Shown here: in pieces, positions 5,245 through 57,384 of the stretch
Layout of the letters: the number at the start of each line of letters is the position of its first letter
Numbering within the stretch: the first letter of the stretch is position 1
DNA from: an uncultured Gemmatimonadota bacterium
Lineage (GTDB): Bacteria > Gemmatimonadota > Gemmatimonadetes > Gemmatimonadales > Gemmatimonadaceae
Direction of reading: 5' to 3'
Length of the DNA: 64,000 bases
Assembly (NCBI GenBank): GCA_902826615.1
Contig: CADEFN010000009.1
Location: 62,001-126,000, forward strand
Position numbers and translations under genes: made by a program
Notes under the pieces: generated by a model
Seen by the model: the letters and a program-made list of their open reading frames with translations, nothing else
Told to the model about the DNA's origin: nothing
The model's database searches: none

Positions 5245-7258
<2,014 letters not shown>

Positions 7259-10053: not shown

Positions 10054-11181
10054 ATGACCGCTACCTCGATCGCCGCCAGCCCCGAGACGGCGCATGACAC
10101 CTTTCCGATCAATGGGACCGATTACATCGAGTTCTATGTCGGCAATGCCAAGCAGTCTTCCCACTACTACCGCACCGCCTGGGGTTATGAGCTGGTGGGA
10201 TATCGCGGACCAGAAACGGGGGTTCGTGACCGGGCCAGCTATCTCCTGGTGCAGGACAAGATTCGCCTGGTCCTGACGACCCCAATGGGTCCCGAAGGTC
10301 CCATTGCCGATCACATCCGCACCCATGGTGACGGTGTGCGCGATCTCGCGTTCTGGGTGGACGATGCACGCGACGCCTATGCGAAGGCCATCGAACGCGG
10401 CGCCGTGTCGGCTGGTGAGCCGACCGTCATGCGCGACGACCAGGGCGAGGTGGTGATCGCCGCCATTCGGACCTATGGCGACACGATCCATTCCATCGTC
10501 GAACGCCGCAACTATCGGGGGCTCTTCCTTCCCGGGTTTGTCCCGGTCACGTCTGACTACAAGCCGGCACCGGTTGGACTCAAGTACGTCGATCACTGCG
10601 TGGGGAATGTCGAACTGGGCAAGATGAATCACTGGGTCGAGTTCTACTCGCGAGTGCTCGGCTTCTTCAACCTGCTGACCTTCGACGACAAGGACATCTC
10701 CACCGAGTATTCGGCGCTGATGTCGAAGGTGATGTCGAACGGCAACGGACGCATCAAGTTCCCGATCAACGAACCCGCCAGCGGCAAGAAGAAGTCGCAG
10801 ATCGAGGAGTATCTCGACTTCTATCGTGGCCCGGGCGTGCAGCACGTGGCCATCGCGACGGACGACATTGTCGGGACCGTGCGCGAGTTGCGTTCGCGTG
10901 GTGTGGAGTTTCTGCGCACGCCTGCCACGTACTACGACGAGGTGTTTACCCGGGTGGGTGCCATTGACGAAGATGCCGGCGCCCTGCGAGAACTCGGCAT
11001 CCTCATCGATCGCGACGACGAAGGGTACCTGCTGCAGATCTTTACCAAGCCCGTCGAGGACCGGCCGACGCTGTTTTACGAGATCATTCAGCGCAAGGGC
11101 GCGAAGGGATTCGGCAAAGGCAACTTCAAGGCGCTGTTCGAGTCGATCGAGCGTGAGCAGGCGGCGCGAGGGAACCTTTAG
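10054..11181 (+). CDS. hppD: 4-hydroxyphenylpyruvate dioxygenase
   Basis: 375-residue vicinal-oxygen-chelate enzyme converting 4-hydroxyphenylpyruvate to homogentisate, the second step of tyrosine catabolism. The iron ligands are visible as H181 (YVDHCVGN), H264 (GVQHVAIAT) and E343 (LFYEIIQR), and the C-terminal [19 protein letters not shown] is the conserved helix that closes the active site. Length is typical. The start ATG is 5 bases after an AGGGAG Shine-Dalgarno. hmgA follows on the same strand after a 154-base gap filled with inverted nonamer arrays. Regulation by the divergent LysR protein is likely. Confidence 0.97.
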
Positions 11182-11184
11182 ACC

Positions 11185-11220
11185 GGAGCACGGGAGGCAC
11201 GAGAAGCACGGGAAGCACGG
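11185..11220 (+). repeat. nonamer tandem array, 3' side of hppD
   Basis: Four consecutive 9-mers begin three bases after the hppD stop: GGAGCACGG, GAGGCACGA, GAAGCACGG, GAAGCACGG (consensus GARGCACGR). The part from 11188 to 11220 is complementary to 11289-11322 with about three mismatches, so the transcript can form a long hairpin with a 68-base loop. Confidence 0.85.
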
Positions 11221-11281
11221 CCGCATCTTTGACAGTGCTACCCAACCCGTGCTTCGCCCCCCTCCCGCGCTCCGCCAACAA

Positions 11282-11335
11282 AGTGCTTCGCGTGCTTCTC
11301 GTGCTTCTCGTGCCTCCCATGCTTCCGGTTCTTCC
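11282..11335 (-). repeat. inverted nonamer array ending at the hmgA start codon
   Basis: Six 9-base units in the opposite orientation (AGTGCTTCG, CGTGCTTCT twice, CGTGCCTCC, CATGCTTCC, GGTTCTTCC) run directly up to the hmgA ATG at 11336. They can pair with the array after hppD or with the one after hmgA (12527-12580). A normal ribosome-binding site is not visible here. Confidence 0.85.
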
Positions 11336-12526
11336 ATGCCAATCTATCATTCGTTAGGTGAGGTACCCAGAAAACGTCACATCGTCTTTCGCCGCCCCGA
11401 TGGGGGATTGTACGCGGAAGAGCTGATGGGGCATGAGGGCTTCGTCGGGACCTCGTCGCTGCTGTATCACACGCATCCGCCCACGACGGTAAAGTCAGCG
11501 CGAAAGGTGCGCGATGTGGTGTGGGAGGCCGATGAGGGCACATCGTTGCGGCACCGGCACTTCCTCACGTCGCGTGTCAGGAAGGGTGGGAGTGCGACGA
11601 TGGATCGCATTCCGCTGCTGTTCAACAGCGACATCGCCATGTCGTATGTGGAACCCGATGCGATCGACGCGCACTTCTACCGCAACTCGCAGGCGGACGA
11701 GGTGGTGTACGTGGTCGAGGGGCAGGGGGTGCTCGAGTCCGTCTACGGCGACCTGCCCTACAAGCCGGGAGACTACATCGTCATTCACCGCAACATCCTG
11801 CACCGGTGGCGGCTCGATGCGGCCGCGCCGAGCAAGCTGCTGGTGATGGAAAGTGCGGGGCATATCCGCTTTCCCAGGCGATATCGGAACGAGTACGGCC
11901 AGCTCCTCGAAGGGGCGCCATTTTGTGAGCGCGACATCCGCCGGCCGCAGTCCCTGGCGCCACACGATGAGCGGGGGGACTTTCCGCTCTTCGTCAAGCA
12001 ATACAATGCCATCAACGAACTGATCCTCGATCACCATCCGTTCGACGTGGTGGGGTGGGATGGCTACTTCTATCCCTGGGCCTTCAATATCCACGACTTC
12101 GAGCCGATCGTCGGACGCATTCACCAGCCGCCTCCGGTGCACCAGACGTTTCAGGGGGACGGCTTCGTGATCTGCTCCTTCTGCCCGCGTCCCTACGACT
12201 TCGACCCGAATGCTGTCCCCGCGCCATACAACCACTCGAATGTGGACAGCGACGAGGTGCTGTTCTACGCATCGAGCGAGTTCATGAGCCGCAAGGGCAT
12301 CGAATACGGATCGATCACCCATCATCCCGACGGGTTGCCGCATGGCCCGCATCCGGGTCGGACCGAGGCCAGTATTGGCGCGAAGTACACCAATGAGCTG
12401 GCGGTGATGATGGATTCGTTCCGGCCGCTCAAGGTGGCGAAGCCGGCGATGACGATTGAAGACCCGAAGTACCACCAGAGCTGGGTGGATCAGCAGCATG
12501 CGGCGTTTAGTCCGCCCACTTCTTGA
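11336..12526 (+). CDS. hmgA: homogentisate 1,2-dioxygenase
   Basis: 396-residue cupin-type iron dioxygenase that opens the homogentisate ring to maleylacetoacetate. Diagnostic segments are the N-terminal MPIYHSLGEVPRKRH, the cupin DEVVYVVEGQGVLESVYGDL with PGDYIVIHRNILHRW, and the C-terminal iron-site region around YNHSNVDSDEVLFYASSEF, ending GLPHGPHPG. The length fits the shorter bacterial form. It follows hppD, giving two consecutive steps of tyrosine degradation. Maleylacetoacetate isomerase and fumarylacetoacetase are not adjacent. Both ends of the ORF touch nonamer arrays, which is very unusual. One GTTAGG copy (11353) supplies the TTA codon of SLGEV. Confidence 0.93.
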   Translation: MPIYHSLGEVPRKRHIVFRRPDGGLYAEELMGHEGFVGTSSLLYHTHPPTTVKSARKVRDVVWEADEGTSLRHRHFLTSRVRKGGSATMDRIPLLFNSDIAMSYVEPDAIDAHFYRNSQADEVVYVVEGQGVLESVYGDLPYKPGDYIVIHRNILHRWRLDAAAPSKLLVMESAGHIRFPRRYRNEYGQLLEGAPFCERDIRRPQSLAPHDERGDFPLFVKQYNAINELILDHHPFDVVGWDGYFYPWAFNIHDFEPIVGRIHQPPPVHQTFQGDGFVICSFCPRPYDFDPNAVPAPYNHSNVDSDEVLFYASSEFMSRKGIEYGSITHHPDGLPHGPHPGRTEASIGAKYTNELAVMMDSFRPLKVAKPAMTIEDPKYHQSWVDQQHAAFSPPTS

Positions 12527-12580
12527 GAGGCACGAGAGGCACGAGAGGCACGAGAAGCACGGGAAGCACGGGAAGTATGA
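12527..12580 (+). repeat. nonamer tandem array starting right after the hmgA stop
   Basis: Six 9-base units follow the TGA at 12524-12526 without a gap: GAGGCACGA three times, GAAGCACGG twice and a degenerate GAAGTATGA. The orientation is the same as in the array after hppD and opposite to the one before hmgA. Confidence 0.88.
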
Positions 12581-12636
12581 AAGGGGTCAAGGTGGGTGTT
12601 GATACATTGCGAATTTCCTTCAAACGGGTTTTCTGG

Positions 12637-13890
12637 ATGAAATCGATTCTTTCGGCGCTCCTGCTTGCTCTCCCCTTGGTGGTTGACGCCCAGGCGTCCC
12701 GCGAGTCGTACCTGCCGCGCGCTCGGCGGCTGATGCGTGAGGCGCCGTTCATCGACTCGCACAACGATTTGCCGGAGATGATCCGGCTCAATGGCGCATT
12801 CGACCTCGACCGGTACGATCCCGACAAAACGCTCCCCATCGACACCGACATTCCGCGAGCGAAAAAGGGGCTCGTGGGGGGACAGTTCTGGGCGGCGTAT
12901 GTGCCGTCGCAGTACGAGGGTGAAGGGGCAGGGAAGATGGTCCTCGAGGAGATTGACCTCATCCGCCGGATGATCGACCGCTCGCCCAGCCTGGAGTTTG
13001 CCACGACCGCGGCCGACATCGTCCGCATTCACAAGAAGGGAAAGATTGCCTCGCTCATCGGCATCGAGGGTGGGCACGCCATCGACAACTCGTTAGGGAT
13101 GCTGCGGATCGCTCATGCCATGGGAGCGCGCTACATGACCCTCACGCATGGGTCGTCAACCGCGTGGGCCGACGCCTCCACCGACGCCGCCAAGCACTCG
13201 GGACTCAGCCCCTTCGGGCTCGAGGTGGTTCGCGAGATGAACCGGCTGGGCATGATGGTCGACATCTCGCACGTCTCCGACGCCGTGATGAGTGCGGTGG
13301 CCCGCACCAGTGAGGCGCCACTTTTCTTCAGCCACTCATCGGTACGGCGTCTGGCCGATCATCCGCGCAATGTGCCCGACTCGATTCTGATGAAGCTGAA
13401 GGAGAAGGACGGCGTGGTGATGGTCAACGCCTTTCCGGCATTTGTCGACTCCGCGGCCGCCGTCATGATGCGTGACGTCTTTGGGGTCCAGCGCCGCTAT
13501 CAGGCGCAGTGGCCCAACGACCCCGCCAAGGTGGACTCGGCCTTTCTGGCCTACATCAACAATGTGCCGAACACCACGCTCGAGAAATACGTCGATCACA
13601 TCGACTACATCGTCAAACTCATCGGTGTGGATCACGTGGGCATCGGGGCGGATCTGGGCGCGATCGACAAACACCCCGCCGGGCTCGACGACATCTCCAT
13701 GTTCCCCAACGTGGTGGCCGAGTTGCTGCGCCGCGGATACACGGACGTGCAGACCAAGAAGATCATGGGCGGCAACGTGCTTCGCGTGATGCGGAAGACG
13801 GAGGCTGTGGCCAAGCGACTGCAGAAAACGCGAAAGCCCTCCGTCATGCGCATTACCGAGGGAGGGCGGGTCGTCGGTCCGGCTGACTAA
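12637..13890 (+). CDS. membrane dipeptidase (M19, renal dipeptidase family)
   Basis: 417-residue exported zinc dipeptidase. The start ATG 12637 gives a clean signal peptide (MKSILSALLLALPLVVDAQA); an earlier in-frame ATG at 12577 would only add repeat-derived residues. Metal-binding motifs are present in family order: DSHNDLPE near the N-terminus, GIEGGHAIDN, VDISHVSD and FSHSSVRRL with ADHPRN, then GIGADLGA. The enzyme splits dipeptides into amino acids, in line with the other peptidases in the window. The stop overlaps the stop of the convergent gene by four bases (CTAA). Confidence 0.93.
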   Translation: MKSILSALLLALPLVVDAQASRESYLPRARRLMREAPFIDSHNDLPEMIRLNGAFDLDRYDPDKTLPIDTDIPRAKKGLVGGQFWAAYVPSQYEGEGAGKMVLEEIDLIRRMIDRSPSLEFATTAADIVRIHKKGKIASLIGIEGGHAIDNSLGMLRIAHAMGARYMTLTHGSSTAWADASTDAAKHSGLSPFGLEVVREMNRLGMMVDISHVSDAVMSAVARTSEAPLFFSHSSVRRLADHPRNVPDSILMKLKEKDGVVMVNAFPAFVDSAAAVMMRDVFGVQRRYQAQWPNDPAKVDSAFLAYINNVPNTTLEKYVDHIDYIVKLIGVDHVGIGADLGAIDKHPAGLDDISMFPNVVAELLRRGYTDVQTKKIMGGNVLRVMRKTEAVAKRLQKTRKPSVMRITEGGRVVGPAD

Positions 13891-55336: not shown

Positions 55337-57267
55337 AACAGCTGACGCGGGCCCTGTGCATTCTCTCGCTCTCGGCCATTCCCGTCTTCCCCTGTGGCGG
55401 CCCCGGCTCCTACCCGATCGATGCACCACTGGTCAGTGTGGACCGGTACCTTGCGGCCGTTGAGTACGAGGATGCGAGCTGGGATACGCGGCGACGCCCC
55501 GAACTTCGTTTCCTGCATCCTTTTCGTGGCGCGCCCGGCATGTCGGAGGCGCTCTGGGCGGCTGCGTACAACGAGCTGACGACGGATTCCGCGCCGTCGT
55601 TTGCTGAACCGGATACCGTGGCGTTAGGCATGCTGATCCGTCGAGGCGACCGGGCGGCAGCGACGAGGGCGGCGCATCAGGTGGTGGAGCGCATCCTCGC
55701 CATGCCGGCCGCCGAGACGGAGCCCTTCAACCGTGTGTTGCGGGTGGCGACCGAGTGGCTCGATATCGAGAATGCGGTGGCTCGCGAACCAGTCGCGCGG
55801 GTGGCGTCGGTGTTGCTCGACGGCGCCTCGGCGACCAGCGGCGTGCTCGCTGAGGTGGTTGCGGTGCGCAACCTCTCTGCGGAACAACGCGACGCCTGGG
55901 TACAGGCCAACCCGCGAAGTGTGCGACGAGCGGCACTGGAGTTTTTGTCAATCCGGCAGGCGATGCAACGCGAGATTCCTGACGGCTGGGCCAGCCAGAT
56001 TCGCGACTCGGTGCCGGCGGCCACGTGGAGGAATCTGGCGCGACGCCACGAGCAGTGGCTGGCCGCGTGGGGCAATCACACCTTGCGGCCGTGGGTGGAA
56101 CTGTCCCGCGCTCGCCTGGCGTATTTCGAAGGCGACGCCGCCCGCGCCTGGGAGCCCCTCCTGCAGTGGTATGCGGACGGGAAGTACCGCACACGCGTGC
56201 TCAGCGAGATGCGCTATTTCGTTGTGCAGGGCGTGCTGCCGCGGCGTGAAGATCGTCGCATCGATCCACGGCTGCGCGCGGCACTTTTGCCGGAAGGGCC
56301 ACTGGATGTGGCCACGTGGAACGCGGTGTGGCGTGATGCACGATCCCTCGACGATTCGACAAGAATCCGAACGGAGGAGCGACTCCTCTGGCGGGCGGCG
56401 CAGCAGCCGCTCAACGATTCGCTCTCGCTGCTGAACGGATTTCCGGTGACGGGTGCGGCTCCCACTCACATGTGGGGTAGCTTTCGTGTCCTTGCGCTGG
56501 CACGAGCGGGGCGACGCGCCGAGGCGCTGCAACATTTCGACGCCCAGCCGACTGACACCGTGCTCGCCCCGCTGCGTGCCCAGCTCCTGCTGGCGTCGCA
56601 TCGCTGGAGCGACGCCATATCAGCACCGCTGCTCCCCTTTGAGGCTCGGCAATACCTCCTCAGGGTCATGGCACCTGATAGCGTGGTGGATCGCATCTCA
56701 AAACTCTCCGACCGCAAGCTCGCGTTAGAGGCGCGCCTGACACGGGCAATGCGCGAGGCCGGGGCGGGGCGGTGGAGTGAAGGCGCAGGCTTGCTGCCAC
56801 GCGGAGACCGACGCGTGGCGCTCTGGCAAACGGCGGCGCGTCTGAGTGCGGATTCGAGCGGTGCAGGAAAACTGGCCTTCGCGCGCTGGCTCAATGCACG
56901 CCACGGCACGCTCTTCCATGGCGTGGACCGTCTCTGGTATCGCTCGCTCAACTGGCGCATGCTGACCCTCACCAGCGAGGGCTCGGATTCGCCGTGGAGC
57001 GAGCTTCTTCCCTGGACGCGTGAGACAGAACATGCCGCAATCGTCGCACATGCGAGCACCGCGTATGAGCGATCGATCGCGATTCGGGTCTACGCCGAAT
57101 GGCTCAAAGCATCAGCGCCCGGCGCGGAACGTCGGCGCGTGCTAAGGGAAGCGAACACGATGTACAACTGGCTGGTCAACTGGGACAATAACAACTCGCG
57201 ACTGTTTCTGGAGTTGATGGAGCGCGACGGGACGGCGCGAGCGATTCGTGAGGCGGGGAGAGTTTGA
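55333..57267 (+). CDS. large lipoprotein partner of the DUF3142-like gene, unknown
   Basis: 644 residues with a signal and possible lipobox IPVFPC. The opening CGGPGSYPIDAPLVSVDRYL is followed by mostly alpha-helical sequence, with segments such as WRNLARRHEQWLAAWGNHTL and RLAYFEGDAARAWEPLLQWY that could be TPR-like repeats. No known domain is recognised. It overlaps the DUF3142-like gene by four bases (ATGA), so the two are almost certainly a functional pair. The last residues precede a 7-mer array that begins directly at the stop. Confidence 0.7.
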   Translation: MKQLTRALCILSLSAIPVFPCGGPGSYPIDAPLVSVDRYLAAVEYEDASWDTRRRPELRFLHPFRGAPGMSEALWAAAYNELTTDSAPSFAEPDTVALGMLIRRGDRAAATRAAHQVVERILAMPAAETEPFNRVLRVATEWLDIENAVAREPVARVASVLLDGASATSGVLAEVVAVRNLSAEQRDAWVQANPRSVRRAALEFLSIRQAMQREIPDGWASQIRDSVPAATWRNLARRHEQWLAAWGNHTLRPWVELSRARLAYFEGDAARAWEPLLQWYADGKYRTRVLSEMRYFVVQGVLPRREDRRIDPRLRAALLPEGPLDVATWNAVWRDARSLDDSTRIRTEERLLWRAAQQPLNDSLSLLNGFPVTGAAPTHMWGSFRVLALARAGRRAEALQHFDAQPTDTVLAPLRAQLLLASHRWSDAISAPLLPFEARQYLLRVMAPDSVVDRISKLSDRKLALEARLTRAMREAGAGRWSEGAGLLPRGDRRVALWQTAARLSADSSGAGKLAFARWLNARHGTLFHGVDRLWYRSLNWRMLTLTSEGSDSPWSELLPWTRETEHAAIVAHASTAYERSIAIRVYAEWLKASAPGAERRRVLREANTMYNWLVNWDNNNSRLFLELMERDGTARAIREAGRV

Positions 57268-57316
57268 GACGGCAGACGGCAGACGGCAGATGGCAGAGGG
57301 CAGGTGGCAGACGGCA
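57268..57316 (+). repeat. heptamer tandem array right after a stop codon
   Basis: Seven consecutive 7-mers begin on the base after TGA 57265-57267: GACGGCA three times, GATGGCA, GAGGGCA, GGTGGCA, GACGGCA (consensus GRNGGCA). Nothing else is recognised in the remaining 68 bases before the CotH gene. Confidence 0.88.
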
Positions 57317-57384
57317 GCGTCGGCACTGACGCCTGAAAGTGTGACCCAGGCCATGGCCGAGTCAGCCGTGCACCCGCCTTCTTG

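Follow-up and report, generated by a model that had tools for sequence, protein, structure and literature searches.

Tandem nonamer arrays at outer gene edges in the genome of an uncultured Gemmatimonadaceae bacterium

Arrays of the nonamer GARGCACGR lie at the outer edges of genes in this bacterium far more often, and at far more regular distances, than random placement within intergenic DNA produces. In a placement test with 5000 simulations, applied to the 76 arrays that fit within an intergenic region, 58 had their 5′ end ≤10 nt from a gene edge versus 16.4 expected (simulation maximum 28), and 25 were at exactly 5 nt versus 1.6 expected (simulation maximum 7). The arrays are always oriented outward from the gene, i.e., in sense after stop codons and in antisense before start codons. 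An initial, sequence-only reading of three such arrays near the hppD and hmgA genes had proposed either a gene-boundary element or a pair of mobile inverted repeats, and had suggested comparing arrays elsewhere with gene ends. That relation holds, and more sharply than was claimed. The arrays appear to exemplify a tendency of short repeats that is still poorly understood, as opposed to a mobile element around hmgA.

The window (the whole stretch of DNA analyzed, 64,000 nucleotides) contains 14 occurrences of GARGCACGR versus 3.9 expected, a count that was reached in 0 of 100 shuffles. The features of the hppD-hmgA locus are as follows:

10054..11181, + strand: hppD, 4-hydroxyphenylpyruvate dioxygenase (NCBIfam TIGR01263, 456 bits)
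11185..11220, + strand: array 1, four nonamer units, directed away from hppD
11221..11289, no strand: spacer (loop) separating arrays 1 and 2
11290..11325, − strand: array 2, four reverse-complement nonamer units, directed away from hmgA
11336..12526, + strand: HgmA-like gene, homogentisate 1,2-dioxygenase family (Pfam HgmA_N and Cupin_2)
12527..12571, + strand: array 3, five nonamer units, directed away from hmgA
12577..13890, + strand: peptidase M19 (membrane dipeptidase) gene, a gene call (Pfam PF01244, 358.7 bits)

All three arrays, as first described, can be read directly in the sequence, and all were called by Tandem Repeats Finder. Array 1 adjoins the edge of hppD, with its 5′ end 3 nt past the TAG stop codon (11179-11181), and is made up of the units GGAGCACGG GAGGCACGA GAAGCACGG GAAGCACGG, in that order. 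Array 3 is immediately 3′ of the hmgA TGA (12524-12526), continues as a degenerate sixth unit to 12580, and has no facing partner; the peptidase M19 gene begins 5 nt past it. Array 2 has a degenerate extension reaching ~11283, and its 5′ end is 10 nt upstream of the hmgA ATG (11336). Exact bracketing of hmgA, as originally described, is thus accurate at the stop codon but not at the start codon. The gene is bracketed because both of its edges carry an array, in keeping with the general rule, and not because gene and arrays form a unit. As for its identity, the Pfam matches agree with the name hmgA, but the protein scores only 36.9 bits against the NCBIfam hmgA model (cut-off 510.75), and it is therefore referred to as HgmA-like. 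It may represent a distinct homogentisate dioxygenase subgroup.

The genome-wide census was based on a sample of 2.45 Mb stitched from the 5.92-Mb genome, with genes predicted by a simple hexamer-based caller made for the present analysis. Part of the sample was chosen for holding arrays; this biases density, whereas distances to genes should be unaffected. The 5′ end of an array is referred to here as its foot and the 3′ end as its tail. Ninety-one nonamer arrays were found. Fourteen are mostly within called genes, at least one of them through read-through (at C3:579085, TCG stands where the stop codon TAG belongs), and the other 77 are intergenic and spread over 54 intergenic regions. At stop edges, the foot is exactly 5 nt from the gene in 25 of 55 cases and between −2 and +8 nt in 48 of 55, while at start edges it falls at 6–13 nt in 12 of 22 cases, with a mode of 7 nt. 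Tails show no clustering, i.e., they are unanchored. Arrays occur in 1 of 264 divergent, 38 of 971 co-directional, and 15 of 216 convergent intergenic regions, and regions with and without arrays are alike in length once those <40 nt are left out.

Three apparent exceptions to the edge rule adjoin tRNA genes at 7–9 nt:

C1:204654-204689: array 9 nt from tRNA-Cys
C3:373447-373491: array 9 nt from tRNA-Leu
C3:373602-373646: array 7 nt from tRNA-Glu

Since arrays adjoin tRNA genes, translation cannot set their position. In several other outliers, a triplet resembling a stop or start codon is present at the distance typical of the family; these arrays probably adjoin small genes missed by the caller.

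The suggestion of mobile inverted repeats around hmgA is not supported. The arms belong to intergenic regions, and only three single genes in the 2.45-Mb sample are bracketed by arrays, namely hmgA and the genes at C4:395710-396774 and C8:133030-134133. Furthermore, comparison with four congeners, whose orthologues are of equal length, shows the hmgA start codon and stop codon to be ancestral. A gene between inward-facing arrays at C1:659330-660389 was considered as an autonomous element, and inspection suggested a chromosomal gene of the ordinary kind.

Copy number ranges from 2 to 8 units; 54 of the 91 arrays have four units and 55 are 36 nt long, although the detection threshold has some influence on these figures. 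Units vary little beyond the choice of purine at positions 3 and 9 (A in 128 and G in 201 at the latter) and some C-to-T changes at positions 5 and 7. The purine at position 3 varies with the slot of the unit in the array (p = 0.008), and mismatches climb slightly from foot to tail, after which the array ends. On the 5′ side of the foot, similarity to the unit is at the level of chance, and the 5′ boundary is therefore sharp. The foot itself has the consensus (C)TTAGGGGCR. One form of it, TAACTACA, which includes the stop codon, is found 5′ of arrays at unrelated genes in genomes G000 and G059. G059, a congener, also carries an ordered module of five unit variants, GAATTACGG-GAATCACGG-GCAGTACGA-GAAGCACGA-GAGGCACGA, in both orientations. 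Slot-dependent position 3 and the ordered module point to copying of modules, as opposed to local slippage.

The nonamer family is nearly confined to the source genus. A 27-mer pattern was found in only 3 of 59 genomes sampled from the bacterial family, including this one, and matches to an 18-mer pattern number 171+177 in this genome, 87+80 in G059, 20+11 in G054, 16+21 in G060, and 1+1 in G029. Scanning 400 kb of G029 for periodicity revealed nothing at the threshold used. An apparent occurrence of the same array in Halorhodospira was rejected as a chance match, consisting of two overlapping hits in low-complexity coding sequence. In G059, many feet are 20–60 nt from the nearest called gene. 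Contigs C224 and C594 of G054 contain arrays of a variant unit, GCAGCACGR, that alternate in orientation at steps of ~70 bases in a BIME-like manner.

Comparison of loci among congeners shows that genes have kept their ends where arrays are now found. For instance, the C-terminus and stop position of hppD are those of four congeners, and an ancestral stop is also seen in hmgA and in the rho-, rpoD-, trxB-, and fabG-like genes, as far as congener loci could be compared (the latter four were named by reading their sequences and not by family search). The possibility that the element supplies a stop codon and truncates genes was rejected on these grounds. The trxB-like locus of G029 keeps GAAGCAC-ATAGGG at the place where the source genome has an array. 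The hppD-hmgA spacer of G054 is 34 nt long and free of arrays, and a sequence in it, CCGCATCTTT, recurs in the loop of the source genome (11221..11289). The old spacer may thus lie between the arms of arrays 1 and 2. The same spacer holds an ordinary short hairpin in G060. In the corresponding loci of G059 (L154) and G029 (L155), other inverted repeat-like sequences with GGACGAGAT-like and GGACG-like units are observed.

When both edges of an intergenic region carry arrays, the two face each other and can pair. Twenty-three intergenic regions hold such a plus-minus pair, while 31 of the 54 array-bearing regions hold one called array. Arrays 1 and 2 together fold into a predicted hairpin of −87.5 kcal/mol (z = −9.6), while array 3 by itself does not fold (z = +1.6). 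The earlier suggestion that array 2 could pair with either outer array, giving alternative stems, is geometrically possible, but paired arms carry no sign of selection for pairing. Among 31 facing pairs, with 0 to 168 nt between the arms, paired arms were 80.0% alike versus 81.4% for shuffled partners (p = 0.91), and avoidance of non-pairing positions between arms was not seen (13.1% versus 11.9%). Because arms that face each other show no excess similarity over random ones, the long hairpin formed by facing arrays is probably a by-product. No U-tract terminator follows the hairpin at the arrays. A search of Rfam gave no match above the gathering score, and the sub-threshold matches were to microRNA models only, which may be attracted by any long hairpin.

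The explanation favored here, although held tentatively and at somewhat less than an even chance, is a genus-restricted family of tandem repeats of outer gene edges that spreads by the copying of modules between such edges. One copy would consist of the foot, (C)TTAGGGGCR, plus roughly four GARGCACGR nonamers directed outward from the gene in the 5′ to 3′ sense, and this module of ~45 nt would be copied from gene edge to gene edge. Purifying selection would hold the 5′ junction at the edge by sparing copies that leave the gene intact; at stop edges, the junction is perhaps also held by the shared TAG/TAA/TGA. The 3′ junction, in contrast, would be free. Pairs, and with them potential hairpins, would arise wherever modules are present at the two edges of a single intergenic region, and any effect on the ends or stability of transcripts would be secondary. 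Several aspects fit this scheme less well. The scarcity of modules further out in intergenic DNA calls for more than selection against damage; at start edges, microhomology that might serve as an anchor is less clear than at stop edges; and many G059 feet are, as noted, 20–60 nt from the nearest called gene.

Other explanations can be set against the copying of modules. If facing arrays were kept for their long transcript stem, they could act as terminators or as stabilizers of mRNA 3′ ends. The strong hairpin predicted at hppD-hmgA agrees with this, as does the higher frequency of array-bearing regions between convergent than between divergent genes, and repeats capable of forming quadruplexes in Xanthomonas coincide with transcript starts or ends more often than controls do (PMC4692102). 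Such a function is nevertheless unlikely to account for the family, given that more than half of the array-bearing regions have a single called array, of which the only one tested (array 3) does not fold, that arms are not co-adapted and non-pairs not avoided, that U-tracts are missing, and that arrays also occur 5′ of start codons and beside tRNA genes. A role for G-quadruplexes, with four units supplying four G-tracts and the resulting structure regulating expression at the gene edge, would match the four-unit mode and gene-edge layout of the repeats in Xanthomonas and Nostoc, and units ending in G at position 9 do join into GGG. However, A is used at position 9 about as readily as G, and four G3 tracts are present in only 22 of 91 arrays when loops of ≤12 nt are allowed and in 12 of 91 when loops are ≤7 nt, so that most arrays are unable to form a quadruplex by sequence. 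The heptamer family of the source genome (see below) has no GGG in its unit either, and this explanation is considered highly improbable.

A facing pair could alternatively be a single MITE or REP-like unit that was moved in trans by a transposase, with those insertions that spared genes having survived. The constant relative orientation of facing pairs, the foot common to both ends, and the alternation of G054 arrays at ~70-nt steps, as in BIMEs, are all in line with such an origin. It is rendered rather unlikely by the frequency of single arrays, the variable spacing of pairs, and arms that resemble each other no more than they do random arms. As to specific versions, a RAYT-driven REP element was rejected because the Y1/RAYT transposase (PF01797, the only transposase family searched) is absent from the genome at E ≤ 0.001, and a MITE with a TA target was rejected because only 3 of 31 pairs have a TA at each foot. 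Finally, arrays might grow in place by slippage from a chance intergenic seed and be stopped by selection on reaching a gene. The range of copy numbers speaks for slippage, as does the GAAGCAC-ATAGGG of the G029 trxB-like locus. On the other hand, a common unit and foot at ~90 places need dispersal, and neither a sharp four-unit mode nor a block on growth at the 5′ end alone is expected, which makes local growth a very doubtful source of the family.

The nonamers are not the only repeats of this kind in the genome. One example of a heptamer array is present in the window:

57267..57317, + strand: heptamer array (AGAYGGC), directly 3′ of a stop codon

Roughly half of the 22 heptamer (GCAGAYG) arrays in the source genome start near stop codons, and the heptamers thus form another repeat family that is anchored at gene edges in the manner of the nonamers.

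A separate observation concerns the octamer CGTTAGGC, the most over-represented 8-mer in the 2.45-Mb sample (752 copies versus 31.6 expected). Examples in the window are located at 2565, 3530, 4131, 11352, and 20525 on the + strand and at 7257 and 62697 on the − strand. The octamer is also enriched in the congener G029 (63 versus 2.3 in 400 kb). The sequence CGTTAGGY is mostly found on the coding strand within genes (668 sense, 158 antisense) and forms 74 TAG stop codons. At 11352, in the N-terminus of the HgmA-like gene, GTTAGGC/T has been retained by three of the four congeners (L152, L153, and L155) even though it uses the leucine codon TTA, which is expected to be rare at 64.5% G+C. The octamer resembles a DNA-uptake or Chi-like motif.

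Several known repeat systems resemble the nonamer arrays in part. In open-access papers, to which the literature search was limited, none was found on the GARGCACGR nonamer or on an edge rule that crosses families. MIRU elements of Mycobacterium are repeats positioned precisely where the stop codon of one gene meets the start codon of the next. They differ from the nonamer arrays in having longer units with small reading frames and in inserting at overlapping stop and start codons.

REP elements and BIMEs of enterobacteria are dispersed and intergenic, and many are close behind stop codons (PMC12306157, PMC2817692). Like the nonamer arrays, they form hairpins and composites that alternate in orientation. 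The REP, however, is a palindrome tied to a RAYT transposase, while the nonamer arm consists of tandem units and does not fold on itself, in a genome without PF01797. The TAACTGA heptamers of marine Beggiatoaceae, which most often end 1 nt before a start codon (MacGregor 2015; PMC4679880), are likewise short tandem units tight against gene edges. They differ in occurring mainly at starts, in being stop-rich and richer in A+T, and in the few facing pairs reported. Their proposed role in translation (PMC4679880) cannot account for arrays at tRNA genes.

Judged by layout, the closest known case is that of the heptamer repeats GGGAATC in Xanthomonas and GGGGA(C/T)T in Nostoc (Rehm et al. 2015; PMC4692102). 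These are mostly intergenic, are found downstream on the coding strand near or over the stop codon, form many facing pairs, are scarce between divergent genes, are not tied to mobile elements, and have a four-unit mode that was linked to G-quadruplexes (PMC4692102). The nonamer arrays share the four-unit mode, the outward layout at edges, the position with respect to the 5′ neighboring gene, the facing pairs, and the scarcity between divergent genes. They differ in having a nonamer unit, in belonging to another lineage, in also adjoining tRNA genes, and in an anchoring measured to the base (5 nt past stops and ~7 nt before starts). Most nonamer arrays are not quadruplex-capable, and the likeness is therefore one of layout only. 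It is conceivable, albeit quite unlikely, that these unrelated lineages share one process, in which short tandem modules would be laid down by directional 5′ to 3′ synthesis from gene edges, e.g., by template switching or templated 3′-end extension. The unit would differ per lineage, and outward orientation with 5′ anchoring would be the common signature. In any case, the four-unit, outward layout at gene edges also holds for a repeat that is mostly unable to form G-quadruplexes and extends to tRNA genes, which argues against explanations based on quadruplexes or on translation. With several independent repeat families available for comparison, the placement of short repeats at gene edges becomes a testable question.
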